A stretch of 55,094 bases of DNA from Gammaproteobacteria bacterium (lineage in GTDB: Bacteria; Pseudomonadota; Gammaproteobacteria; Pseudomonadales; Azotimanducaceae), in the NCBI GenBank assembly GCA_003248125.1, contig QJXZ01000254.1, positions 1-55,094 on the forward strand, given 5' to 3'. The translations under genes were made by a program, and so were the position numbers. The notes below the pieces were generated by a model. It saw nothing but the letters and a program-made list of their open reading frames with translations. It was not told the origin of the DNA and did no database searches. The number at the start of each line of letters is the position of its first letter. Position 1 is the first letter of the stretch. This document shows, in pieces, positions 21,534 to 36,581 of this stretch.

Positions 21534-22217
21534 ATGCCGAGAATGCCCCGATTGGTGGTGCCGGGTTTACCGCACCACGTCACGCAACGTGGCGCGCGCC
21601 GCCAGCGAACGTTTTTCGACTCGGGTGACTACGCCGGCTACCTCGACTTGCTACTGCACGCAAAGCAGTCAGCCTCGGTCGATATCTGGGCGTACTGCTT
21701 GATGCCCAACCACGTGCATTTTGTCGCGGTGCCCTCACGTGAGGATGGCCTTCGCAAGCTGTTCGCCGAGTTGCATCGGCGCTATACGGCTCGCATCAAC
21801 GAGCGCCATGGATGGCGCGGTCATCTGTGGCAAGAGCGCTTCTTTTCCTGCGTCATGGACGAGCGGCATTTGTTGGCAGCCGTTCGCTACGTCGAGCGGA
21901 ATCCGGTGCGTGCCCACCTATGTGCTCGAGCTGACGAATGGGCGTGGTCGAGCGCAACCGCTCACCTTAACGGAATCGATGACCCCATCATCGACGACAT
22001 CCCCATGCGTGAGCTCATCGATGATTGGGCGACTTATCTCCGCGGCCAAGAATCCGACAAGATGATCGGTGCGCTGCGAGCCCATTCGCGCACGGGTCGG
22101 CCACTTGGAGATGAAGCATTTGTTCGCAAGTTGGAGGTTGCGACGGGAAGGCGTCTGCGCAAACGCGCGGCGGGACGACCTCGGCGGACAGGCATCAAAC
22201 CTGCGAGTAACAAATAG
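21534..22217 (+). CDS. REP-associated (Y1/HUH) transposase, RAYT
   Basis: This 227-residue protein matches the Y1 transposase domain: the start MPRMPRLVVPGLPHHVT, the HUH metal motif PNHVHF (His60, His62), LHRRYTARIN with the probable catalytic Tyr84, and WQERFFSC, followed by VRYVERNPVRA. The C-terminal tail is basic (GRRLRKRAAGRPRR). RAYTs are usually single-copy, domesticated genes that maintain small palindromic repeats. The ATG at 21534 was preferred over TTG at 21435 because homology begins at MPRMPR. It lies inside the element described at 21402-22231. Confidence 0.9.
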   Translation: MPRMPRLVVPGLPHHVTQRGARRQRTFFDSGDYAGYLDLLLHAKQSASVDIWAYCLMPNHVHFVAVPSREDGLRKLFAELHRRYTARINERHGWRGHLWQERFFSCVMDERHLLAAVRYVERNPVRAHLCARADEWAWSSATAHLNGIDDPIIDDIPMRELIDDWATYLRGQESDKMIGALRAHSRTGRPLGDEAFVRKLEVATGRRLRKRAAGRPRRTGIKPASNK

Positions 22218-22231
22218 GTAAACTGTCCCCG
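22213..22231 (-). repeat. Right inverted repeat of RAYT element
   Basis: AATAGGTAAACTGTCCCCG is the exact reverse complement of the left end. It partly overlaps the transposase stop codon region (stop ends at 22217) and lies 2 bases from the FAD oxidoreductase stop. Confidence 0.93.
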
Positions 22232-22233
22232 GT

Positions 22234-23547
22234 TCAGAGGCCGGGCCCCGGCACCATGGGCGAGCCGTCGAAGAATCGGCCGAAGCGGAAGCGTTCGAGG
22301 TCGTGGCCAACAGGGCGGCCCAACACGAGGTCGGCCATTACACGGCCCGCGCCGGGACCGATACCGAACCCATGCCCCGAGAATCCGGTCGCGAGGTAGA
22401 GTCCCGGGTATTGCGGTACGGCGTCCATCACCGGCACCACGTCGGGCGTAACGTCGATCATGCCGGCCCAGCATTCCTCGAACGGTAGTTGGGCGAGCGC
22501 AGGGAACCGTTGCTCGAGTCCGGCGCGCATGTTGCGGAGCGCCTTTGGCGACGGCTCCGGATTCAACACCCGGGTTCGCTCGAACGGTGTTGCCTCGTCG
22601 GCGCGCCAGCGCCGCGTCGGCGTTAGGCGGTGTAGGAGATCGCCGCCGAAGCGCAGATCGAGAAAGCGGTGACTGGCGCGCAGTGCGGGCAGGAAGTCGC
22701 GAAAGTAGCGGAAACTGTCGGCCGCCACGAAATGCTCGTTGATGCCGCTCGCCGCCACGGTATAGCCGCCATCCAGCCGCCGTCGAATGGCGACCTCCGG
22801 TGCCGCTGCATTGCCGGCGTAGATGTCGGGTGCTACTGCGGTACGTGCAACCGTGGCGCGGACGGTGAGTTGCGGCAGATCGATACCGAGATTGGCGAGA
22901 AACAGGCTGGACCACGCGCCGCCGGCACAAACGACCGCGGATGCGTGCACGCGGCCATGCTCGGTGACCACCCCTGCAACCTTGCCGGCTTCGACGTCCA
23001 GCGCCCTCACCGCGCACGATTCGCGAATCACCGCGCCGCGCCGGCGCAGTGCGTCGGCGAGCGCCGGCACCGCCTTGAACGGTTCGGCACGGCCGTCGCT
23101 CGGCGTGTAGAGCGCGCCTTTCCACTGTCCGGGCCGATCACGGATCAGCGCGTCGACTTCTGCCCGGGACAGCAATTTGGTGTCGAGTTGATGCGGCGCC
23201 GCGACTGCCAGCCACTGCTCGAAGTCGGCCAGTTGGCGTTCCGTCGCGGCGAGATATGCAACGCCGCGGCGCGTGAAGCCGATGTCGGTGTCGAGTTCGC
23301 GTGCCATCGCTTCCCAGGCGTTGATGCTCTCGATGACGATCGGCAATTCCGCTGCATCGCGGCCCTGTTGCCGAATCCAGCCCCAGTTGCGGCTGGACTG
23401 CTCGCCCGCCACGCGTCCTTTCTCACAGACGAGCACCGCGACACCGCGTGCGCGGAGGAACCAGGCGGTCGCAATGCCGATGACACCGCCGCCGATCACG
23501 ACCACATCGGTGCGCTCAGGCAGCGCATCGGTGAATCGAACCGGCAT
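22234..23547 (-). CDS. FAD-dependent oxidoreductase, DAO family
   Basis: This 437-residue flavoenzyme belongs to the D-amino acid oxidase/glycine oxidase/sarcosine oxidase family. The N-terminal Rossmann motif is VVVIGGGVIGIATAWFL, followed by CEKGRVAGEQSSRNWGWIRQ, a substrate domain with the VVCAGGAWSS segment and a C-terminal FAD-contacting ATGFSGHGFGIGPGAG. It oxidises an amine or related donor. ATG at 23547 gives the usual short N-terminus; ATG at 23568 is an alternative. It is divergent from the enoyl-CoA hydratase gene. Confidence 0.88.
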   Translation of the reverse strand: MPVRFTDALPERTDVVVIGGGVIGIATAWFLRARGVAVLVCEKGRVAGEQSSRNWGWIRQQGRDAAELPIVIESINAWEAMARELDTDIGFTRRGVAYLAATERQLADFEQWLAVAAPHQLDTKLLSRAEVDALIRDRPGQWKGALYTPSDGRAEPFKAVPALADALRRRGAVIRESCAVRALDVEAGKVAGVVTEHGRVHASAVVCAGGAWSSLFLANLGIDLPQLTVRATVARTAVAPDIYAGNAAAPEVAIRRRLDGGYTVAASGINEHFVAADSFRYFRDFLPALRASHRFLDLRFGGDLLHRLTPTRRWRADEATPFERTRVLNPEPSPKALRNMRAGLEQRFPALAQLPFEECWAGMIDVTPDVVPVMDAVPQYPGLYLATGFSGHGFGIGPGAGRVMADLVLGRPVGHDLERFRFGRFFDGSPMVPGPGL

Positions 23548-23644: not shown

Positions 23645-24442
23645 ATGCCCAGTTACACCGACATAGAAGTCGAGATCGACGATCCAGTCGCGCTCATTCG
23701 GCTCAATCGGCCGGAGAAGCTGAATGCCTTCACGTACCACACGCTTGCGGAATTGCGGTCCGCGATCGACTCCGCGGCAACCGACGCGCGCGTGGTCGGC
23801 ATCGTCATCACGGGCAATGGTCGCGGATTCTGCGCCGGGCTCGATGCGCAGGTGCTCGCGGAAGTGACGCAACGGCCAGCCGCCGTTGCCACGGACCGAG
23901 ACCGTTTGCCGGGCATCTTCAGTTACTTGCTCGAGATTCCGAAACCGGTGATTGCAGCAGTGAACGGCGTTGCCGCCGGCGGCGGTGTGATCCTCGCGCT
24001 GATGAGCGATTTGCGCCTCGCGTCGGACAAGGCGAGCTTCACCACGGTGTTCTTGAAGCGCGGTCTCATCGCCGAGCATGGCTCGACGTGGTTGTTGCCG
24101 CGCATGGTCGGTATCGGCCGGGCGCTCGATCTACTGTGGATGAGCGACAAGATCGACGCCAAAGCGGCACACGAGATCGGTCTGGTCGAAAAGGTGGTCG
24201 AGCACGACTCGCTGGTTGCCGCAGCGTGCGACTACGTCAAACGGTTGGCGACGACGTCGGCGCCCGCCGCCATCGCCGAGTCGAAGCGGCTCCTGTATCG
24301 GCATTTGGGTGTCGGCTACGTCGATGCCCTGCGCGAAGCGGAAATCTCGCAGAATCAGTTCGTCACCGCACCGGATGCAATCGAAGGCGCTCGCGCGCTG
24401 CTCGACAAGCGTGCGCCGAGATTCAGACGTCTCGGCGAGTAA
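23645..24442 (+). CDS. Enoyl-CoA hydratase/isomerase family protein
   Basis: This 265-residue crotonase-fold protein has ALIRLNRPEKLNAF, the oxyanion-hole segments GNGRGFCAGLDAQVL and AAVNGVAAGGGVILALMSDLRLAS, and a GLIAEHGSTWLLPRMVG segment with a Glu in the usual catalytic area. It acts on enoyl-CoA or similar thioesters in fatty-acid or aromatic breakdown; the exact reaction is open. The ATG at 23645 follows a GGAAGGAG ribosome binding site. Its 3' end overlaps the convergent BTAD-hydrolase gene by 20 bases. Confidence 0.9.
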   Translation: MPSYTDIEVEIDDPVALIRLNRPEKLNAFTYHTLAELRSAIDSAATDARVVGIVITGNGRGFCAGLDAQVLAEVTQRPAAVATDRDRLPGIFSYLLEIPKPVIAAVNGVAAGGGVILALMSDLRLASDKASFTTVFLKRGLIAEHGSTWLLPRMVGIGRALDLLWMSDKIDAKAAHEIGLVEKVVEHDSLVAAACDYVKRLATTSAPAAIAESKRLLYRHLGVGYVDALREAEISQNQFVTAPDAIEGARALLDKRAPRFRRLGE

Positions 24443-26048
24443 CCGCGGGCGCCGCCACGCCATCCTTCACGAAGCTGCGTATTTCCCAAAGAAAACGCGC
24501 AAATGCGGGCTCGTCGTCCAGCAGCAGATGGTTGTTGCTCGGTAGCGCAACGAAGCGGGCGTTGGGGATACTGGCGGCGAGTAGGCGGCCTTCGTCGAAT
24601 GGCACCATGGCATCGCCCGTGGCATGCATGACGAGGGTCGGCACCGAGATATTCGCCAGATGCGCCATGATGTCGTCGTCGCCGGACGCTTCGGTCATCC
24701 GATAGGCGTTGTCGGCCGATGCCGAGACCCGCTGCAACTCGTTGAACCATGTCATTTGCTCCGCGCTCGCATCGGGCATGAACAGTGTGGTGAAGAGCTG
24801 CCGAAACGCGGGCCGATCGCTTCCCCAGCCGTGCCGAATGGACGCTTGCAGACCAGCGCGCATCGCCCGATGGCTTGGTTTGAAGTGCTTCCAACCGCGC
24901 GCGGCACCGCCGTAGAGCACGAGGTGTGAAACCCGTTCGGCGTGGTGGAGCGCGTACTCGATTGCGACGCGGCAGCCGCCCGAGACACCGAGGAGTGCAA
25001 AGCGTTGCGCGCCCGTGGCCTCGACCACGGCATTCAAATCGGCAACACCGGCCTGCAGTGAAAACGTCTCCACCTCCCAATCCGACAGACCATTACCGCG
25101 TTGGTCGTAGCGAATCAGCTCGAATTCGCGCGCCAGCTCGCGCGCCAAGTGGCGCCAAAGGGGACACTTCCAGTCGTACTCCAGGTGACTCATCCAGTTG
25201 GCGGTCTTGACGAGTGGTAGCCCTTCGCCGACCTTTGCGAATGCGATCCGTGTGCCGTCTTCCGACACACAGAATTCGATCCGTTGACGTTGTGCATCGG
25301 CGTCCGGTGTCGTGCTCGGGGCAGGCTTTGCGTTCACTGTGCGCCAAACGGCGAACAGTTCGTGCCGATCCTCACCGCATCGCTCGATCTGTTTGCGACC
25401 CAGCACGTAGTGCTCCTCAGCTTCCTCGCGCCGGCCGCTTGCCACTAGCAAGCGCACCAATGTCGCCCGGTTCGTTTCGTCTTCCGGCGCGAGGCGCACG
25501 AGCTCGCGCGCGTAGTCGAGTGACTGTTCCGGGTTCGACTCGTTGCGAGCTACCAGTTCGCCGAGCAAGCGTCGGTGGGCGCGGCGAAACTCCTCGCGCA
25601 TGGCGACGCGCCAAGCCTGAAATTCATCGAGCTCGGGCAGTTCGACGTTGTCGAGAAACTCGCCGCGAAAAGCAGCCGCAAGAGCCTGCAATCGATCGAT
25701 CGGTAATTCCGAGAGCGCCTCGGCACAAGCATTGCGCACCGCCAATACGTCTACCCACGCGCCGTTCGGCTCGAATGCCACGGCGTCTCGATCGGCTCGA
25801 ATGCGTTTGGCATCGTCGTCGTCGAGAATGCGTAACTTGCTGACACTCCAACGCAAAGCGGCGCGCGGGTCTTCGGTGAGGTCCCACAGCAGCGCCGCCA
25901 GCCGCTCGCGCCGTTGTGGGCGTTGCGTTGCGACCAGATAGGCCAGCAGCGCGCGGGTCTTCTGTGATTGTGGAAGCGACACCGGCGCGTCGTCGCGCAG
26001 CACCGTGAGCGGTCCGAGCAGGCGAATGACGAGCTGGGAGGTTGCCAT
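24423..26048 (-). CDS. BTAD (SARP-like) regulator fused to alpha/beta hydrolase
   Basis: This 541-residue fusion starts with a winged-helix DNA-binding domain (about 6-100; RLLGPLTVLRDDAPV, KTRALLAYLV, LRWSVSKLR) and a BTAD helical domain (about 100-240), the layout of SARP activators. An alpha/beta hydrolase follows (about 258-530) with a complete triad: Ser356 in LLGVSGGCR, Asp479 in HATGDAMVP and His507 in PSNNHLLL. The hydrolase may sense or cleave a ligand and so control DNA binding. The N-terminus is clearly paralogous to the regulator at 28646-31603. It is the last gene of the minus-strand block, 92 bases after the FMO gene. Confidence 0.88.
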   Translation of the reverse strand: MATSQLVIRLLGPLTVLRDDAPVSLPQSQKTRALLAYLVATQRPQRRERLAALLWDLTEDPRAALRWSVSKLRILDDDDAKRIRADRDAVAFEPNGAWVDVLAVRNACAEALSELPIDRLQALAAAFRGEFLDNVELPELDEFQAWRVAMREEFRRAHRRLLGELVARNESNPEQSLDYARELVRLAPEDETNRATLVRLLVASGRREEAEEHYVLGRKQIERCGEDRHELFAVWRTVNAKPAPSTTPDADAQRQRIEFCVSEDGTRIAFAKVGEGLPLVKTANWMSHLEYDWKCPLWRHLARELAREFELIRYDQRGNGLSDWEVETFSLQAGVADLNAVVEATGAQRFALLGVSGGCRVAIEYALHHAERVSHLVLYGGAARGWKHFKPSHRAMRAGLQASIRHGWGSDRPAFRQLFTTLFMPDASAEQMTWFNELQRVSASADNAYRMTEASGDDDIMAHLANISVPTLVMHATGDAMVPFDEGRLLAASIPNARFVALPSNNHLLLDDEPAFARFLWEIRSFVKDGVAAPAVTRRDV

Positions 26049-26140: not shown

Positions 26141-27439
26141 TCAACCCGCGGCGGCGAGCATGGTGTGACGAGTTACCGAATCGAGATATGCGTGCAGATG
26201 ACACGCGAGTTCGTTCGAATCGTCTTCGGCACCGTGCATGAAGCTCGACTTGCGACGCCGCATGAAACCGAGTCCGAGCACATACATACCAGGCGCATCG
26301 ACGACACCGCCGTCGTGACGCAGCTTGCCGCGTCGATCCAGCACAGGGACGTGCAACCACGAATAGTCCGGCTTGAATCCCGTCGCCCAAACGATGGAGC
26401 GAATCTCGCCGCGCTCGAGATCGAGCTCGAGTGTCGGTGAGGCACCCACCCGCGTCGGTTCGAATCGCTCGGGCAGGTCCACCGCTGCGTCGAAGTCGTG
26501 CGCGCGGGCCCAGGCGTCGAATCCGTCGAGCATGCGGCCAAGCTTCAGATCCGCCATTGCGCAGTGATTGCGCAGCGCGCCGGAAAAGAGCGCCTTACCA
26601 CTGCGCACGCCCGCAAGGCGTCCCACCAATCGCACACCGCTCGCAGTCAACGTATTCAGATCGAGCGTCGTACGCGCCGGTGTACCCACCAACTGCGGTG
26701 ACGGCACGTGCCGGGCACGGACGATGTCGTCGACTTGATCGTAGCGCTCATCCAACAAACCCGTTGCCATCATCCAACGTTGTACGTCGAGGCCGCGGTA
26801 CAGACGCGGCATACGCACGTGCTCACCGACCGACAGCGTCACGGGACGGCCGGATCGTTGAATCTCCTCGGCCAGTTGCAATCCGGTGGCGGATGCACCG
26901 ACCACGAGTACGCCGCCATGCTCGAGATCCGTCGGATTGCGGTATTCGCGAGGCGTGATGGTGCGCACCGAGTCGGGCACTGCGGACGCGACGGCGGGCA
27001 CCGTGGGTGTATTGAAGGCACCGCTCGCCAGCACCACGCTGCGGCAGCGCCAAGTGCCGCGATCGGTGGTCACGCGATAGCCGTATGGATCCGGGCACAC
27101 CGACGTGACGGTCGTGCCGTTTTGGACGGGTGCGCCGATCCACGCCGCGTACGATTCGATGAAGGCGATTACTTCGGTCATCGTCATGAAACCGTCGGGA
27201 TCGGTTCCGCGGTAGCGAAAACCGGGCAGACGGCTCATCCAGTTCGGGGTGAGCAGGCGCAACGAGTCCCAGCGCTCGCGCCGCCACGAGTTCGCCACCT
27301 CGGCGCGTTCGAGTACGACATGGTCGATGGCGCGCTCGGTGAGGCGGCGGCTCATGGCGAGCCCGGCGTGGCCGGCGCCGATGACGACGGTCGTCACCGT
27401 GCCGGCCTTGGCGCCACTCGACGTGCGATCCGTGCTCAT
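26141..27439 (-). CDS. Flavin-containing monooxygenase-like protein
   Basis: This 432-residue flavoprotein has an FAD site (VVIGAGHAGLAMSRRL, about 18-33), an NAD(P) site (VLVVGASATGLQLAEEI, about 195-211) and the ATGF segment near the C-terminus (IVWATGFKPDYSWL). This is the layout of FMO/CzcO-type enzymes that add oxygen to N, S or carbonyl carbons. The full Baeyer-Villiger fingerprint was not found. Its start overlaps the OsmC stop by one base (TGATG), so the two are coupled. The upstream in-frame extension to 28204 is spurious. Confidence 0.9.
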   Translation of the reverse strand: MSTDRTSSGAKAGTVTTVVIGAGHAGLAMSRRLTERAIDHVVLERAEVANSWRRERWDSLRLLTPNWMSRLPGFRYRGTDPDGFMTMTEVIAFIESYAAWIGAPVQNGTTVTSVCPDPYGYRVTTDRGTWRCRSVVLASGAFNTPTVPAVASAVPDSVRTITPREYRNPTDLEHGGVLVVGASATGLQLAEEIQRSGRPVTLSVGEHVRMPRLYRGLDVQRWMMATGLLDERYDQVDDIVRARHVPSPQLVGTPARTTLDLNTLTASGVRLVGRLAGVRSGKALFSGALRNHCAMADLKLGRMLDGFDAWARAHDFDAAVDLPERFEPTRVGASPTLELDLERGEIRSIVWATGFKPDYSWLHVPVLDRRGKLRHDGGVVDAPGMYVLGLGFMRRRKSSFMHGAEDDSNELACHLHAYLDSVTRHTMLAAAG

Positions 27440-27996
27440 CACTTCACCATCACTGCCACGTTGGTGGGGTTGGTGATGATGTCGAACACTGCCGAACGCT
27501 TTTGCGATTGGGCGACCAGCGCTTCGATTTCCTCTCGTGTGGCGTCGGCGTCGATCTCGAAGGTGACCTTGACGTCGTCGAAGCCGTTCCGCACATCGGG
27601 GTCGATGCCGAGAATGCCAGCGAGATCCATGCTGCCTTCGACGATAGCCTTCACCGAGCGCAGCTGAATGGCGCGGTTTTGCGCGACACTCGCGATACCG
27701 GCGGTGAGACAGCCGGCGAGCCCGACCAGAACGAACTCGACGGGGGTCGCACCGTTGTCTTCGGACGCGAACACCTCGGGGTGATCGACGTCGAAGCTGA
27801 ACTCGGTCTTGTGTTGCTGGGCGGCGCCCAACCCGTCGAAGCCTTTGACGTTGGCGCGGGTGTGCGTACCGCTCATCCACGTACTGGCAGCGCGCCAGGT
27901 GAATCGGGCGGCCTCGGGTGCTTGGCTCAATGCCTCGCGCGCATCGAGAAGCGCCTGCACGTTCACGCCGTTGTCGACTTTGCTTGCCATGTTCAT
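27439..27996 (-). CDS. OsmC family protein
   Basis: OsmC/Ohr proteins reduce organic hydroperoxides with a reactive cysteine. This 185-residue member has a peroxidatic-type cysteine in PVEFVLVGLAGCLTAGIASVAQ (Cys96). The usual second cysteine region here reads QKRSAVFDIITNPT, with no cysteine, so it may be a single-cysteine form, and peroxidase activity is uncertain. It precedes and overlaps the FMO gene by one base, suggesting that the pair handles a reactive oxygenated compound. The 116-base gap upstream to the DUF4242 gene may hold a promoter. Confidence 0.87.
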   Translation of the reverse strand: MNMASKVDNGVNVQALLDAREALSQAPEAARFTWRAASTWMSGTHTRANVKGFDGLGAAQQHKTEFSFDVDHPEVFASEDNGATPVEFVLVGLAGCLTAGIASVAQNRAIQLRSVKAIVEGSMDLAGILGIDPDVRNGFDDVKVTFEIDADATREEIEALVAQSQKRSAVFDIITNPTNVAVMVK

Positions 27997-28112
27997 CTGA
28001 AGTTCCTCGCTTGGTTGAATGTGGCCCGGTCATCACCGAGCGAGGCGGAGATTGGCGGCGAGGCGTTTGAGCGAGCGTGGAAGTGGGCGTGGTTTTTTCC
28101 GGTGCTACCGCA

Positions 28113-28649
28113 TCAAGTCGGCGCTGGTTCGACGCGCTGGAACGCCCACACGCGCTCGAACGGCATGTTCGCTTCGCGTTGGGAGACGCGCACCGACTCG
28201 GCATCCGGCGCCCGATACAGACAGATCATGCGCTTGCGATCGAGGGCGAAAAACGACCGCACGGCCTGCACCCGGTGGGTGTCGAGGCACCACTGTCCCT
28301 TGCGCTCGATCGCCGCGACGTCCTCGAACGTAACCGGTATCGCGAACGAGCGTTCGACTAGCACGTTGGCATTGGTCGCACCGATGGCGCCGATGTCGGG
28401 TGCATCGTGCACCGTGCCCGACCAGAGACGACTCACGTCGGCCTTGGCTTGGCGTAGCGCGATGCGCGCCGACTCCGCATCGGGTGCATGCAACCAGCAA
28501 ACCATTCGATGCCCATCGCGTGCCAGAAAACTCGAGTTCCAGACCACCTTGTGTGCTTGTAGACACCCGCCAGAGCTTGCTGCCGTGGCCAAGACGTCGG
28601 TCGGGGTGAGTGGGGGGTTGAAGGTGCGTTCCAGGAAAGCGTCGCTCAT
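28113..28649 (-). CDS. Tandem DUF4242 protein
   Basis: This 178-residue protein consists of two copies of the same roughly 85-residue unit (about 1-85 and 95-178). Both share VxxRSF or LERTF at the start, CLQAHKV/CLDTHRV, SFLARDGHRMVCWLHAPD/SFFALDRKRMICLYRAPD and a closing RxW. This matches DUF4242, a small ferredoxin-like fold whose members are suggested to bind nickel. The function here is unknown. Its start overlaps the stop of the large BTAD-ATPase gene by 4 bases, so it is made from the same transcript and may be linked to its signalling. Confidence 0.8.
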   Translation of the reverse strand: MSDAFLERTFNPPLTPTDVLATAASSGGCLQAHKVVWNSSFLARDGHRMVCWLHAPDAESARIALRQAKADVSRLWSGTVHDAPDIGAIGATNANVLVERSFAIPVTFEDVAAIERKGQWCLDTHRVQAVRSFFALDRKRMICLYRAPDAESVRVSQREANMPFERVWAFQRVEPAPT

Positions 28650-31603
28650 TTGCGGCTCCGTTGCGGTGCAGGTGTTGCGAGCGCGGCCGCGCGCGCGCGC
28701 GCCCAGACCGCCACGGGTTGATCGTCGAGGACCGCGATGGCATCGAGATGACGTTTACGTTCGCTCGCGCGGCTCGCCTGCGCGAGCACGACATGGGCAA
28801 GCAATTGCTCGGTCGGCCGCTCGAGAATCTCGGCGTAACCGAGCGCCTCGCCGGCACGCGCCATGGCATCGCTAGGGCGTCCGCGCGCCAAGTCGAGCAG
28901 TGCCGTTCGCGTCAGCACGTAGGCGAGTCGATGTTTGGCGTCGGCGGTGCGTAGCGCGTCGATCGCATCGTCGAGCGCCGCCGGGTCGTCGTCCACCGCA
29001 TACTCACACATCGCGGCAACCGCCTCGGCAAACGGCGCCTCGCTGCCGTCGCGCAGCTTGGCCCCGAGTTCCACCAGCGCCCGCGCGCGGCGCTTGGCGG
29101 CGTCGTAGTTCTCGCGTTCGACGTCGATCATGACCAGGTATTCATTGGCTTGAAACTCATTCAGGCGATCGCCTGCCGACTTGCACAACAATCGCGCCTC
29201 GTCGAACAGCGCTTCGGCCTCATCCAGTGCGCCCTCATGGAAGCGCAACATGCCGAGCCCGGCGGGAATCGCTGCGGTGGCGACGTGCTTGCGGCTGGCG
29301 AGCGAGCGGGCCTCCAGCAGCATGGCGTCGGCGACCGACAAGTCGCGCTCGAGCATGGCGAGACACTTGGCGGCTTCCGCCATGCCGACGACTTGATCCT
29401 CATCGGCGCCGGCACGGGTGGCACGTGCGGCCTGCAAGGTCGCTTCTCGTGCTCGTGCCCAGTCGCCGTGGGCCCAGCGCAGATAGCTCGCCATGTGATA
29501 GCCGAGCCGTGCGTGACTCGGTGCACCGTGGTCGAGGGCCTGCTCGGCGAGTTCGACCAGCGTCGATGCCTCGGACTGCCAATCGGGCACCGGTGCCGCC
29601 AGCATCAGGATGTCCTTCAATTCGAGCGTGACACGGACGCGGGCGGCATCGTCGAGCCGTGCCGCGAATGCCAGCCCTTGGTGAGCCAGGGATTGCGCAT
29701 CGTCGTTGGCGAAGAAGCGCAAACAGAGGCGGCCCGCGCAGATCATGGCACGGGCAGCCAGGTCGGGCTCGCCACTCTGCTGCGCATGATGAGCGAGGTC
29801 GGCGGCGGTCTGCAGGTCGAGCGCCGTTTCCCGTTCGAGCAATTCGGCGACCCGGCGGTGCATCACGCGCCTGCGAACCGGTGAAATGTCGCCGTAGATG
29901 TAGCGCGCGATCAGCGTGTGGGAGAAGCGAAAGCCCTCCTCCGTGAGCTGCATCAGTGCCTGTCGTTCGGCGATGTCGAGGGCGTGTTCGATGCGGGCGA
30001 CGTCGAGCTCGGTAACCCGCGCAAGGAAGGCTGCATCGATTCGCGGTGACAGCACCGCCGCCCAACGAATGAGGTCGGCGGTGCCGGCGTCGCAGCGCGA
30101 CACGCGTTCCAAGACCAGCTCATCGAGCGAGCTGCCACGCTCACCAAAGGTGATGGCGCGTGCCAATTCGATCGCAATGAGTGGATTGCCGCCGCAGGCG
30201 CCGGTCAGTGCCCGGGCGTCCGCGTTCGGCGCATAGGCCGTGATCAGGCGCTCTACCGACTCGTTCGACAGCGGTCCGAGTGCCACCTCCTTCAGCAACC
30301 CGTCGTGACGAAGGCCGCGCAGTGCCTGCTGCACGGCGCTGTTGTCGCGCAGCTCGTCGTCGCGGGCGGTGAGCGCGATGAACACGGGCAGTTGCGGATT
30401 CATGCGCAGCGCGTAGTGCATGGCCGCCGCGCTCGATTCGTCGCACCACTGCAGGTCGTCGACCAAGATCAGCACCGGCCGCTGCTCGGCTTGCAGGGCG
30501 AGCAGCTTGCTGAGCCGCGCGAACAGCCGGTCACGCGTGTCTTCCGACTCGCTACGGAAGACATCGGTTGCGGTCTTGGCATCGAAGCGCCGCAAGGCAT
30601 CGATCCAAACGGCGAACGGCCGAATGGTTTCGGATTCGACGGCGCTCGCCCGCAAGACGATGGCGCCGGCCGCGTGCGCGGGCTCCTCCAGCGCCGACAG
30701 CAACGTGCTCTTGCCGATCCCGGGGCGACCGAACAGGAGCGTGACTTGCGGTTGGCCGCGGGCGAGCACGCGGGCGAAATCGGCGCACAAGTCCGCGGCC
30801 TCCGCGTCGCGGCCAATGAGCCCATCGACGCGCGGTAGCGGCGCCACTGCGGCGGTGGCCTTGGGTGCGGTCACCAGGCTCGACTTGCCATCGCTGGCAC
30901 GCCGGGCGTCGATCAGCGCGGCCGACGGCGGGGCCCCAATCTCGTTCAACAACCGCATGCCGAGCTGGAAGTGCTGCTCGGCTTCATCGGCGTGCCCGAC
31001 GGCCGACAGCAGACGAATCAACGTTGCCCGCGCCCATTCGTCGTAGGGGTCGATCGTGACCAAGGCGCGGGCGTGGGGCAGGGCGCGCGCCGGTTCGGGA
31101 CCCAAGCGATCAACCAGCGTACTTAGCACGGCGGCCTGGGCGCGCGCGGCGAGCTCACGCTCGGCGGCACACCAGGCATGAAAGTCGTGGAAGTTGGGCA
31201 GATCCAGTCCTTCGAGGAAGTTGCCGCGGTAACGCTTGGCGGCCGCCTCGAGCGCCTCGATCGTCGAGCTTGCGAGCGCGGTGTCGGCAAGATGGCGCAA
31301 CTCGGCCACGTCGATCGACGCCCCGTGCGGCTCGAACCGCACGTGGCTGCGGTCGGCGACGATTCGACGGGCGTCGTCGTCGACCAGGCGGCGGAGCTTC
31401 GATAGGCTCCAACGCAGCGAGCCCTTCGGGTCGTCCGGCAGCTCCCACAGCAGCTCGCAAAGGTGCTCGCGGCGGAAGTCCCGGCCGTTGAGCGCCAGGT
31501 AGGCGAGCAGCGCACGGGTCTTCTTCGATGGTGGCAACGGCAAGGGTTGGCCGTCGCGAACGACCTCGAGATCGCCCAGGAAGTTGAGCTTTAGTGACGC
31601 CAT
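28646..31603 (-). CDS. BTAD (SARP-like) regulator fused to AAA ATPase and TPR domain
   Basis: This 985-residue regulator has an N-terminal winged helix (about 1-95, LRWSLSKLRRL) and BTAD region (to about 240), then an AAA-type ATPase with Walker A GRPGIGKST (292-300) and Walker B LILVDDLQW (378-386), then TPR-like helices to the end. No LuxR-type HTH is visible at the C-terminus, so DNA binding is through the N-terminal domain. The layout resembles AfsR/large SARP activators of Actinobacteria. It probably senses a ligand through the TPR part. It is divergent from the cysteine synthase fusion gene across 165 bases. Confidence 0.9.
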   Translation of the reverse strand: MASLKLNFLGDLEVVRDGQPLPLPPSKKTRALLAYLALNGRDFRREHLCELLWELPDDPKGSLRWSLSKLRRLVDDDARRIVADRSHVRFEPHGASIDVAELRHLADTALASSTIEALEAAAKRYRGNFLEGLDLPNFHDFHAWCAAERELAARAQAAVLSTLVDRLGPEPARALPHARALVTIDPYDEWARATLIRLLSAVGHADEAEQHFQLGMRLLNEIGAPPSAALIDARRASDGKSSLVTAPKATAAVAPLPRVDGLIGRDAEAADLCADFARVLARGQPQVTLLFGRPGIGKSTLLSALEEPAHAAGAIVLRASAVESETIRPFAVWIDALRRFDAKTATDVFRSESEDTRDRLFARLSKLLALQAEQRPVLILVDDLQWCDESSAAAMHYALRMNPQLPVFIALTARDDELRDNSAVQQALRGLRHDGLLKEVALGPLSNESVERLITAYAPNADARALTGACGGNPLIAIELARAITFGERGSSLDELVLERVSRCDAGTADLIRWAAVLSPRIDAAFLARVTELDVARIEHALDIAERQALMQLTEEGFRFSHTLIARYIYGDISPVRRRVMHRRVAELLERETALDLQTAADLAHHAQQSGEPDLAARAMICAGRLCLRFFANDDAQSLAHQGLAFAARLDDAARVRVTLELKDILMLAAPVPDWQSEASTLVELAEQALDHGAPSHARLGYHMASYLRWAHGDWARAREATLQAARATRAGADEDQVVGMAEAAKCLAMLERDLSVADAMLLEARSLASRKHVATAAIPAGLGMLRFHEGALDEAEALFDEARLLCKSAGDRLNEFQANEYLVMIDVERENYDAAKRRARALVELGAKLRDGSEAPFAEAVAAMCEYAVDDDPAALDDAIDALRTADAKHRLAYVLTRTALLDLARGRPSDAMARAGEALGYAEILERPTEQLLAHVVLAQASRASERKRHLDAIAVLDDQPVAVWARARAAALATPAPQRSRK

Positions 31604-31768
31604 CGTGGACGGTCGTCGACCGTGGAGCGCCGATATTGGAGGGTTGGCGCGTCCGCCTCAAGCCGACCGACCGAAAAAACCACGCTTTCTCCCACGTTCA
31701 CTCCATCGGTGCCCGCCGAGCATGGCCACCGTCGAAATGCCCAGAGCGGCAAATAACCGGAGAACGTC

Positions 31769-33250
31769 ATGGCTCGCTACGCCAACATCCTAGAGACCAT
31801 CGGCAATACGCCCTTGGTGAAGATCAACAAGCTCGCCCCTGCCGGGGTCAACGTGTACGTCAAGGTCGAATCCTTCAACCCCATGGGGTCGGTGAAGGAT
31901 CGCATGGCGCGCGCGGTCATCGAGCAGGCCGAGCGCAGCGGTGCGCTCGCACCGGGCCAGACCGTGATCGAGGCGACCAGCGGCAACACCGGGATTGCGC
32001 TCGCCATGGTGTGCGCGCAGAAGGGCTATCCGCTGGTGGTGACCATGGCGGAGAATTTCAGCGTCGAGCGCCGCAAGCTGCTGCGCTTTCTCGGCGCGAA
32101 GGTGGTACTGACCCCGGCCGCGGAGAAGGGCACGGGCATGCTCGCCAAGGCCGAAGAGCTCGCCAAGGCGCATGGCTACTACCTCTGCCGCCAGTTCGAG
32201 AACGAGGCCAATGCCGAGGTGCACTCGCGCACCACCGCGCAGGAAATCCTCGCCGACTTCGACGGCGAGAACCTCAACTACTGGGTATCGGGTTTCGGCA
32301 CCGGCGGTACGCTGAAGGGCGTTGCGAGGGCATTGAAGGCGGCCGATCGGAACATCAAGATCGTGGCGGCCGAGCCGGACAATGCACAAGTGCTCGGCAG
32401 CGGCATACCACAACCGCGCGATGCGCAGGGTGCACCCACCGGTAGCCATCCACATTTTCGCCCGCACTTGATGCAGGGATGGAGCCCGGACTTCATCTCG
32501 CGGCTCACCGAGGATGCGGTTGCGGCGGGCCTGGTCGACGAGATCGAGCCCGTGAACGGCAACGAGGCCATGCGGCTCGCACGCGAATTGGCACGTCAGG
32601 AAGGCATCTTCGTCGGTACCTCTAGCGGCGCGACATTCGCCGCGGCGCTTGCCGTCGCACGTCGTTCGCCGGCAGGTACCAACATCGTCTGCATGCTCAC
32701 CGACACCGGCGAGCGCTACTTGTCGACGCCGCTCTTCGAGGACATCGGTGAGGAGATGAACGATGCCGAGCAAGCGTTGTCGCGCTCGACGCCATCGGCG
32801 CGATTCGATGTGTGCGGCGTCGCCAGCGCGAGCGCACCCGCATTCGAAAGCGATGCCGATGCCAGACGGTTCGTGCAGGCGACCGTCGAGGGTGCGCCGG
32901 TGGTGATGTTTGCGCTCGAGTGGTGCGAGTTCTGTTGGTCCGTCCGCAAGCTGTTCGCGCGGCTCGGCATCGAGTACGTGAGCATCGATCTCGACTCGGT
33001 TGCCTATCAGGATGACGACCGCGGCGGCAAGATCCGCGGTGTGCTCGCCGAGCGCATAGGTTCGACGACGATCCCGCAGATCTTCGTCGGTGGCGAGCAC
33101 GTGGGCGGTTGCACCGACCTCTTCGATGCGTGGCGCAAGGGAGACATCCAAGCGCGCCTCGAATCACTCGACGTCCACTTCAATCGCGACGACCGTGTCG
33201 ATCCGTACACCTTGTTGCCCAAGTGGCTGCACCCACGCAAGTCGGCTTGA
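31769..33250 (+). CDS. Cysteine synthase-glutaredoxin fusion
   Basis: This 493-residue protein joins a PLP-dependent O-acetylserine sulfhydrylase (about 1-335) to a glutaredoxin domain (about 365-460). The synthase part has the PLP lysine in NPMGSVKDRMA (Lys43), TSGNTGIAL (71-79) and GTGGT (178-181) as phosphate-binding loops, and GTSSGA near 283. The glutaredoxin part has CEFC (386-389) in place of the usual CPYC, TIPQIFVGGEHVGGCTDL with the cis-Pro and a GG motif. Fusing a sulfur-transfer enzyme to a thiol oxidoreductase suggests delivery or reduction of a sulfur donor. It begins an operon with three more genes. Confidence 0.92.
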   Translation: MARYANILETIGNTPLVKINKLAPAGVNVYVKVESFNPMGSVKDRMARAVIEQAERSGALAPGQTVIEATSGNTGIALAMVCAQKGYPLVVTMAENFSVERRKLLRFLGAKVVLTPAAEKGTGMLAKAEELAKAHGYYLCRQFENEANAEVHSRTTAQEILADFDGENLNYWVSGFGTGGTLKGVARALKAADRNIKIVAAEPDNAQVLGSGIPQPRDAQGAPTGSHPHFRPHLMQGWSPDFISRLTEDAVAAGLVDEIEPVNGNEAMRLARELARQEGIFVGTSSGATFAAALAVARRSPAGTNIVCMLTDTGERYLSTPLFEDIGEEMNDAEQALSRSTPSARFDVCGVASASAPAFESDADARRFVQATVEGAPVVMFALEWCEFCWSVRKLFARLGIEYVSIDLDSVAYQDDDRGGKIRGVLAERIGSTTIPQIFVGGEHVGGCTDLFDAWRKGDIQARLESLDVHFNRDDRVDPYTLLPKWLHPRKSA

Positions 33251-33262
33251 AGGAGGAACGTC

Positions 33263-34210
33263 ATGCGTGCCGAAAACATACCCGTCATCGACGTCGGTGA
33301 ACTCCACTCGGCGCACACGCGCGCAGCAGTCGATGCCGCGTGCCGCGATTGGGGCTTTTTCCAGGTGGTTGGCCACGGCATCGATCAGGTGATCCTCGAT
33401 GACCTGCATCGCGCGATGCGCGAATTCTTCCATCAACCGATGGCGGCCAAGCGCGCGATCACGCGAACGGCGGAAAATCCCTGGGGTTTCTACGATCGCG
33501 AGCTGACCAAGAACACGCCCGACTGGAAGCAGATCTACGACTACGGCCCCGGCGACGGCGCGCACCTGGTGCCGCAGTGGCCGGCCGCATTGCCTGCTTT
33601 CCAGCCGGTATTGATGGCCTACTACGAGGCTTGCCAATCGCTCGCCTTCGAGCTGTTGCGTGCGATTGCCGCGAATCTCGGTATGCCCGCCAGTCACCTG
33701 GACGAGGATTTCGGCCCTGGCAACACCAGTTTCGTGCGCCTCAACTACTACCCGGTGTGTCCCGCGCCCGCGCACCCGGATGGCGTGCAGACGCCGTCGA
33801 GCGGATACCTCGGCGTCAATCACCACACCGATTCGGGCACGTTGACACTGCTACTGCAGGACGACCAGCCGGGACTCGAGGTGTATCGCGATGGGGTCTG
33901 GTACCTGGTCGAGCCGCGTGCAGATGCGCTCGTCATCAACATCGGTGACATCGTGCAGGTGTGGTCGAACGATCGCTATCGGGCGGCGCTGCACCGCGTG
34001 CTGTCGAATTCGCACAGCGAGCGTTTCAGCGCGCCGTTCTTCTTCAATCCGCGCTACGGCACGAACTACGCGCCCCTGCCGAGCACTGTGGATGCGGAGC
34101 ATCCTGCACGCTACCGGCCCATCAATTGGGGTGAATTCCGGCGCTTGCGGGTAGCGGGCGACTACGCCGACGTCGGCGAAGAAATTCAGATCAGTCATTA
34201 CCGCACTTGA
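33263..34210 (+). CDS. Isopenicillin-N-synthase-like Fe(II)/2OG oxygenase
   Basis: This 315-residue non-haem iron enzyme has the facial triad His188 and Asp190 (NHHTDSGTLT) and His244 (ALHRVLSN), with the RxS 2-oxoglutarate motif Arg254/Ser256 (ERFSAPFF). The N-terminal domain (DIPxID-like IPVIDVGEL, WGFFQVVGHGI) is typical of the IPNS/plant-hormone oxygenase group. True isopenicillin N synthase lacks a 2OG requirement; the RxS suggests a 2OG-dependent hydroxylase or desaturase. It begins 12 bases after the fusion gene. The substrate is unknown. Confidence 0.9.
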   Translation: MRAENIPVIDVGELHSAHTRAAVDAACRDWGFFQVVGHGIDQVILDDLHRAMREFFHQPMAAKRAITRTAENPWGFYDRELTKNTPDWKQIYDYGPGDGAHLVPQWPAALPAFQPVLMAYYEACQSLAFELLRAIAANLGMPASHLDEDFGPGNTSFVRLNYYPVCPAPAHPDGVQTPSSGYLGVNHHTDSGTLTLLLQDDQPGLEVYRDGVWYLVEPRADALVINIGDIVQVWSNDRYRAALHRVLSNSHSERFSAPFFFNPRYGTNYAPLPSTVDAEHPARYRPINWGEFRRLRVAGDYADVGEEIQISHYRT

Positions 34211-34220
34211 GGCAACGATC

Positions 34221-35003
34221 ATGGCATTCATACGCACGATAGATCCGAACGAATCGCGTGGCGACGTTCGCGCGATGTACGAGCGCCAGCAGGCGAGCTG
34301 GGGCTATGTGCCGAACTACGCGAAGATATTCAGCCATCGCCCCGAAGTGATGGCGCGCTGGGCGAGCCTGCTCGCAGGCATTCGCAAGACCATCGAGCCG
34401 CGCCGCTTCGAGCTCGTCACCTTGGCAGCGGCATACGAGCTCAAGAACTCGGCGTGTGCGCTCGCACACGGCAAGGCGCTGACGCGATGGTTGTCGCCGG
34501 CCGACGTCGCAGCGTTGCTGGATGACGAAGCGCCGAGTCCGCTCTCGGAAGGCGATGTGATCATGGTGCGATTCGCGCGCAAGGTGGCGCGCGATGCATC
34601 GGCAATCACGGCAGGTGATGTGGAAGCGCTCAAAGTCGCCGGGTTCGACGACGGCGAGATCTTCGACATCGTGGCAACCGTGGCCGGACGCGCGTTCTTC
34701 ACCAAGTTGCTCGATGGGCTCGGTATCGAGCCAGACCGTCCGTTTGGCGACATCGACGAGTCGTTGCGACGCAGGCTGACCGTCGGTCGGCCGATCGACT
34801 ACCGCGCGCCGACGCACATGGAAGAACCAGTGACTCGCAGTGCCGTTTCGCACATGCTCGAGATGCATCGCTTGCGACGCTCGTTCACGCGCCACCTCCT
34901 GCGCCGAATGACAGGATTCGTGGCGCGGATGGTTCGTGCCTGGCAAGCGGCGGTGTTGACGCCCAGATTGCACCTTCCACGAGTGCGAACGAAGCGCGCC
35001 TGA
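34221..35003 (+). CDS. Carboxymuconolactone decarboxylase/AhpD-like protein
   Basis: This 260-residue protein shows the AhpD-like helical fold: an N-terminal segment (YVPNYAKIFSHRPEVM), a LAAAYELKNSACALAHGKALT motif where one cysteine and the AH pair remain of the usual CxxC-x3-H, and a C-terminal peroxidase-like helix (FDIVATVAGRAFFTKLLDGLG). With the first cysteine replaced (Asn), classic two-cysteine peroxidase activity is doubtful. Residues beyond about 200 are a basic tail with no known domain. It lies 10 bases after the oxygenase gene and is likely co-transcribed. Confidence 0.82.
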   Translation: MAFIRTIDPNESRGDVRAMYERQQASWGYVPNYAKIFSHRPEVMARWASLLAGIRKTIEPRRFELVTLAAAYELKNSACALAHGKALTRWLSPADVAALLDDEAPSPLSEGDVIMVRFARKVARDASAITAGDVEALKVAGFDDGEIFDIVATVAGRAFFTKLLDGLGIEPDRPFGDIDESLRRRLTVGRPIDYRAPTHMEEPVTRSAVSHMLEMHRLRRSFTRHLLRRMTGFVARMVRAWQAAVLTPRLHLPRVRTKRA

Positions 35004-35060
35004 GCCGAACGAAGTGGCCTTGTGGTGTAATCCTTCCCGTCGATGGGAGGAAGCAAGGCC

Positions 35061-36581
<1,521 letters not shown>

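Follow-up and report, generated by a model that had tools for sequence, protein, structure and literature searches.

A SARP-type regulator fused to a triad-bearing alpha/beta hydrolase, with predicted 12-bp direct-repeat operators beside OsmC-FMO and cysteine synthase-glutaredoxin genes

The SARPs best known so far regulate antibiotics in Streptomyces and carry ATPase/TPR halves. A 2024 review gave only small, NB-ARC/TPR and LAL architectures (PMC10972967), in line with the first-pass annotation of the present locus, which gave ATPase or TPR modules for known SARPs, and our text search found no hydrolase-bearing SARP described in the literature. AfsR and EmbR resemble the fusion protein analysed here in their N-terminal OmpR-like winged helix and BTAD and, by prediction, in having direct repeats spaced 8 bp from -10, but their input is NOD/TPR or FHA where the fusion has a hydrolase, and the fusion's predicted repeat period is 12 rather than 11. 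Among hydrolases, RsbQ is a sensing module with diverse outputs that requires its triad (PMC3183031). The RsbQ-RsbP PAS system would share with the fusion a triad-bearing alpha/beta hydrolase as the sensing part, with different outputs; however, RsbQ is not part of the chain through whose PAS domain it acts, whereas the fusion is a single chain without PAS. The plant receptors KAI2 and D14 likewise use a hydrolase fold with an intact triad as receptor, and KAI2 was among the structure matches of the fusion, although these receptors signal through F-box partners and lack a DNA-binding domain. LipJ (Rv1900c-type lipase/adenylate cyclase, NF058673) joins the same broad hydrolase group to a signalling output, but that output is a cyclase; the fusion has no cyclase domain and scored far below the LipJ family cut-off (73 bits vs 800).

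We analysed a stretch of 55,094 nucleotides, referred to as the window, in which the following features make up the fusion gene.

24423..26048, minus strand: SARP-hydrolase fusion, 541 aa, ATG start
25749..26048, minus strand: OmpR-type winged-helix DNA-binding domain, residues ~1-100 (EmbR/AfsR profile match and model)
25329..25748, minus strand: BTAD domain, residues ~101-240 (Pfam PF03704; EmbR/AfsR profile match)
24459..25295, minus strand: alpha/beta-hydrolase module, residues ~252-530 (Pfam, triad, profile and structure matches)
24981-24983, 24612-24614 and 24528-24530, minus strand: codons of the triad residues S356, D479 and H507

Pfam detected Abhydrolase_1 at residues 297-514 (1.9e-19) and, with a score above cut-off, BTAD at residues 116-221 (9e-7). 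In profile searches, the N-terminal 245 aa matched EmbR (2fez; 2-230, 3e-7) and AfsR (8hvr; 3-228, 1e-6) end to end, which indicates that the winged helix and BTAD of the fusion are real. The AlphaFold2 model, built with 63 homologues, showed two well-folded parts (mean pLDDT 92.9, pTM 0.61) separated by a disordered linker at residues 244-250; given this linker and the pTM value, the mutual orientation of the two rigid parts is undefined, with no fixed interface. Pfam, profiles and model therefore agree with the earlier proposal of a SARP/BTAD regulator fused to an alpha/beta hydrolase. The chain has the domain order of the SARP family, an N-terminal OmpR-type DNA-binding domain and then BTAD, followed by a hydrolase and not by the ATPase/TPR half of the large SARPs (NB-ARC/TPR) or SARP-LALs, and Pfam detected no PAS domain in it. 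Databases name such fusions 'alpha/beta fold hydrolase', which masks the SARP part. An anti-phage defence role was rejected, as neither the fusion nor the neighbouring STAND-SARP had a PADLOC match. Elsewhere in the window, ARAGORN called a tRNA with a two-base anticodon (22179-22272, minus strand), probably a false call.

The fusion is not rare, with at least 80 named loci. A search of about 1,000 relatives' genomes returned full-length matches in several families, and a scan of named genomes matched at least 537 relatives, from which the best 80 were taken as the locus set (relatives counted individually, ORFs called by length). All of these best 80 loci (80/80) held full-length fusions, which rules out a unique fusion or assembly artefact. 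They came from Alpha- and Gammaproteobacteria, with one MAG each from Myxococcales and Acidobacteriota. In L116, the nearest fusion (64% identical), the gene adjoined neither OsmC nor FMO. The N-terminus of the window fusion clusters with those of other fusions, and its origin by local duplication of the adjoining STAND-SARP was rejected on that ground.

The minus-strand genes of the window run in the order STAND-SARP, SCO4226-like, OsmC, FMO, fusion.

28646..31603, minus strand: STAND-SARP, BTAD + AAA_16; N-terminus 46% identical to that of the fusion
28113..28649, minus strand: SCO4226-like (PF14026) protein (Pfam)
27439..27996, minus strand: OsmC-like protein (Pfam) whose only Cys lies in GLAGC
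26141..27442, minus strand: FMO-like flavoprotein (Pfam), overlapping the end of osmC by 4 nt, without a BVMO fingerprint

The STAND-SARP has an N-terminal SARP part related to that of the fusion and may share its operators, but carries an AAA_16 half where the fusion has the hydrolase. Recurrence beside OsmC and FMO genes, named at the outset as support for the fusion, was also found: OsmC lay within 4.6 kb in 22/80 loci (24 genes) and in none at 4.6-10 kb, and about 0.5% per locus would be expected by chance given a background of ~1.6 OsmC per genome in the window's relatives. FMO accompanied OsmC at 10 of those 22 loci, spread over several clades. A close FMO homologue adjoined OsmC in 5/5 further genomes, and the distant FMO group did so in 0/13 loci. 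Near-obligate adjacent pairs of OsmC and an FMO of the window's type were seen in the window (26141-27996) and in L100, L101, L113, L114 and L127, and also in L128, L132 and L216-L220; in L218 and L220 the regulator beside the pair is a CadC-TPR protein. Homocysteine S-methyltransferase (HMT) neighboured the fusion in 16 of 80 loci, mostly elsewhere on the tree, and 43/80 loci had none of OsmC, FMO or HMT nearby. OsmC directly followed hydrolase genes with other outputs in 3/20 loci. The Baeyer-Villiger fingerprint was absent from the window FMO, so an ester product is not implied, and a Baeyer-Villiger FMO was rejected as an ester source.

At the fusion loci, direct repeats of 12 bp stand in tandem (AGCGTTGTAAcCAGCGTtGaAA), and a -10-like hexamer follows after 8 bp. 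Period-12 repeats occurred upstream of 30/80 fusion genes compared to 7.5 expected, the strongest lag, and lags 11 and 22 were at background. We trained a 22-bp matrix of this motif on the regions upstream of the 80 fusion genes, the window being outside the training set. In five-fold cross-validation, 33/80 loci had their best match anywhere in the locus on the strand of the fusion and no more than ~250 bp upstream of it, and sites of at least 18 bits numbered 105 in the loci vs 3 in shuffled copies. Per 100 kb, sites numbered 7.24 in BTAD-hydrolase loci and 0.30 in loci whose hydrolase has another output, compared with 0.39 around unrelated FMO genes and none at the distant BTAD fusions; the motif is thus ~24 times rarer per kb where the hydrolase has another output domain. 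These densities indicate that the motif goes with the fusion's DNA-binding domain. A scan of the window's own genome, with a site pattern too loose to be informative, showed no excess over the reversed control.

When 91 arrays were aligned on the supposed target side, the -10-like hexamer spanned +8 to +13 (80% have A at +9, 49% A at +11 and 48% T at +13), and an ORF with a ribosome site started 15-115 bp off the array on the target side in 38/75 cases vs 14/75 on the opposite side. AfsR-type SARP promoters have a spacing of 8 bp between the 3' repeat and -10 (PMC10936776), and the arrays described here appear to share this spacing. Their period of 12 differs from the 11 or 22 bp of Streptomyces members; a 10-bp repeat variant in PimR (PMC5930380) indicates that period does not strictly define SARPs. 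The tandem 12-bp repeats of the fusion loci, with their apparent SARP promoter geometry, are new candidate operators. A site adjoins HMT where HMT is downstream of the fusion (L154; one site in L122). Other predicted targets of the motif, in L104, L167, L172, L176, L184 and L122, include ECF sigma factors, cytochrome P450 and an AurF-like N-oxygenase.

Two arrays were predicted in the window, with the following elements and target genes.

28062..28097, plus strand: operator A (predicted), three 12-bp units GGCGTTTGAGCG AGCGTGGAAGTG GGCGTGGTTTTT, upstream of osmC (PWM 19.8, 16.4 bits)
28049..28054, minus strand: -10-like hexamer of the osmC-FMO(-fusion) promoter, CAATCT, spaced 8 bp from operator A
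31675..31710, minus strand: operator B (predicted), three 12-bp units ACCGATGGAGTG AACGTGGGAGAA AGCGTGGTTTTT (PWM 17.1, 13.0 bits)
31718..31723, plus strand: -10-like hexamer of the cysK-grx promoter, GAGCAT, spaced 8 bp from operator B
31769..33250, plus strand: cysteine synthase A-glutaredoxin fusion, predicted target (TIGR01139 above cut-off; Glutaredoxin)
33263..36581, plus strand: 2OG-Fe(II) oxygenase, CMD/peroxidase-related protein and carboxylesterase genes after cysK-grx

The top three motif matches in the 55 kb were at 28062 (+), 31677 (-) and 28074 (+), with the remainder at 15 bits or below, and both arrays contain one copy of the 12-mer CGTGGTTTTTTC, which is absent from the rest of the window. 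Single matches of at least 17 bits appeared in 5/60 shuffled windows, so a lone match would mean little; here, two three-unit arrays occupy both promoter gaps of one gene block. The osmC start follows array A and CAATCT, and the divergent cysK-grx start follows array B and GAGCAT; the oxygenase, CMD/peroxidase-related and carboxylesterase genes may share the cysK-grx promoter. Arrays also preceded the cysK-grx start in L105, L113 and L114 and osmC in L113, L114 and L132, and in Chelatococcus L128 the MFS, CysK-Grx, OsmC and FMO genes are consecutive, with sites before MFS and before OsmC. No motif site was found at the window fusion's own start. A sigma-70 consensus scan of the block gave no match, and activator-dependent promoters would be compatible with either outcome. 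A literature search for a cysK-grx/OsmC/FMO operon found none described.

In the hydrolase, S356 sits in GVSGG, and D479 and H507 complete the triad, intact at the positions proposed in the first reading of the gene. Conservation among 95 fusions was high (S 93/95, D 93/95, H 95/95), which that reading had named as support, and the fold together with the Ser-Asp-His triad places the domain in the alpha/beta-hydrolase superfamily. The canonical HG oxyanion motif is replaced by A-N-W-(L/M)-(S/N)-H, and W285 and H288 in this loop, which usually carries HG, are 96-97% conserved. The exceptions to the triad, L105 (18066-19676) and L106 (9815-11479), read A/E/H (Ser to Ala, Asp to Glu) yet keep the same BTAD-hydrolase architecture and an adjoining motif site, which indicates that these two, at any rate, can do without catalysis. 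The hydrolase profile reached the RsbQ and D14 structures, and the hydrolase model reached KAI2. The nearest solved folds were active esterases and the enol-lactonase PcaD. On the PcaD equivalog profile the fusion scored 93.8 bits, below the cut-off of 255.85. A hydrolase of the same family, 44% identical, lies at 68-955 of MT838436, an unannotated 5.3-kb 'phage' record, and is possibly host contamination; a phage relationship of the fusion was rejected, as this single unannotated record of ~5 kb was its only support.

Close relatives of the hydrolase are joined to CadC-type wHTH, LuxR HTH, cyclase, TIR and BTAD, and the LuxR HTH, cyclase and TIR partners each occur at either end of it. Such variety of unrelated outputs, on either side of one module, is the pattern expected of an input domain. 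Neighbouring genes vary between loci as well (HMT, P450, ECF sigma, OsmC). The BTAD label has to change at least three times along supported branches of the hydrolase tree, where a further BTAD-hydrolase group (L075, L078, L080, L081) lies far off. The triad varies in other signalling fusions of the module, with a Cys nucleophile in L005 and L046, Ala in L085, and loss of Asp and His in L009 and L030. TIR fusions, N- or C-terminal, occur in L003 (1492-2880, minus strand), L009 (1459-2808, plus strand) and L027. Proteins of ~1,560 aa were seen in L128 (9995-14695), L133, L151, L152, L155 and L163; the L128 chain runs SARP-type N-terminus, hydrolase, cyclase-like stretch, AAA_16 STAND half.

Taken together, the domains, triad, recurrence, linked targets and SARP-geometry operators of the fusion can be read from sequence, the targets and operators as predictions. 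We give a probability of about two in three to the reading that the fusion acts as a one-component SARP-type activator, switching on a thiol/redox regulon when its hydrolase pocket senses a ligand. The alpha/beta-hydrolase domain would replace the ATPase/TPR half as the signal-input module, and a small molecule would enter its pocket to be bound or turned over. By analogy with AfsR, the ligand would alter how the N-terminal domains pair side by side along the tandem 12-bp repeats by the -10 element, and RNA polymerase would be recruited to the osmC-FMO(-fusion) promoter and the divergent cysK-glutaredoxin operon. With the fusion on the osmC-FMO transcript, positive feedback would follow. Points that count against this reading are the 12-bp period, the lack of a site at the window fusion's own start, the distance of L116 from OsmC and FMO genes, the 43/80 loci with none of the three neighbours, and the lost Ser and Asp of L105 and L106.

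Three other readings bear on parts of this model. The hydrolase might cleave its own inducer (an ester, lactone or thioester), so that turnover resets the switch, an idea that goes back to the first reading of the gene; the 98-100% triad conservation in fusions, the active esterases and PcaD as nearest solved folds, and the triad requirement of RsbQ signalling (PMC3183031) are in keeping with this. However, a conserved triad also fits ligand binding without turnover, L105 and L106 retain fusion and site without Ser and Asp, and the triads of other signalling fusions vary (L005, L046, L085, L009), which leaves a self-limiting regulator a tentative proposal. That the fusion is instead a bifunctional enzyme, its hydrolase acting on products of an FMO/OsmC/CysK pathway and merely tethered to a regulator, appears improbable: the module is fused to many unrelated outputs beside varied genes and not within one pathway, even though the fusion is an operon partner of FMO with an intact triad and the Chelatococcus loci hold CysK-Grx, OsmC and FMO together beside it.

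The companion STAND-SARP may use the same window arrays as the fusion, and its 46% identical N-terminus, together with similar sites beside a STAND-SARP in L113 and L114, which have no BTAD-hydrolase fusion close by, would fit both window operators belonging to it alone, leaving the fusion with other targets or redundant. Against this, the motif was trained on BTAD-hydrolase loci, none of which showed a STAND-half match nearby, and L132 combines osmC-FMO sites with a BTAD-hydrolase and holds no STAND-SARP in its 5.5 kb contig; we therefore regard exclusive ownership by the STAND-SARP as rather unlikely.

The activator reading would extend the SARPs to a wide proteobacterial branch with a hydrolase as input, for which operator, promoter geometry and targets can all be predicted. 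More speculatively, and with considerable doubt, the fusions may form a large unnamed one-component class of Pseudomonadota in which a competent hydrolase senses and consumes its inducer (possibly an electrophile such as a thioester or thiolactone), turnover then setting how long a thiol/redox regulon is expressed through the 12-bp-period SARP operator. Ligand sensing by hydrolase folds, the question raised by RsbQ and KAI2, would thereby become testable in one soluble protein and a reporter promoter.
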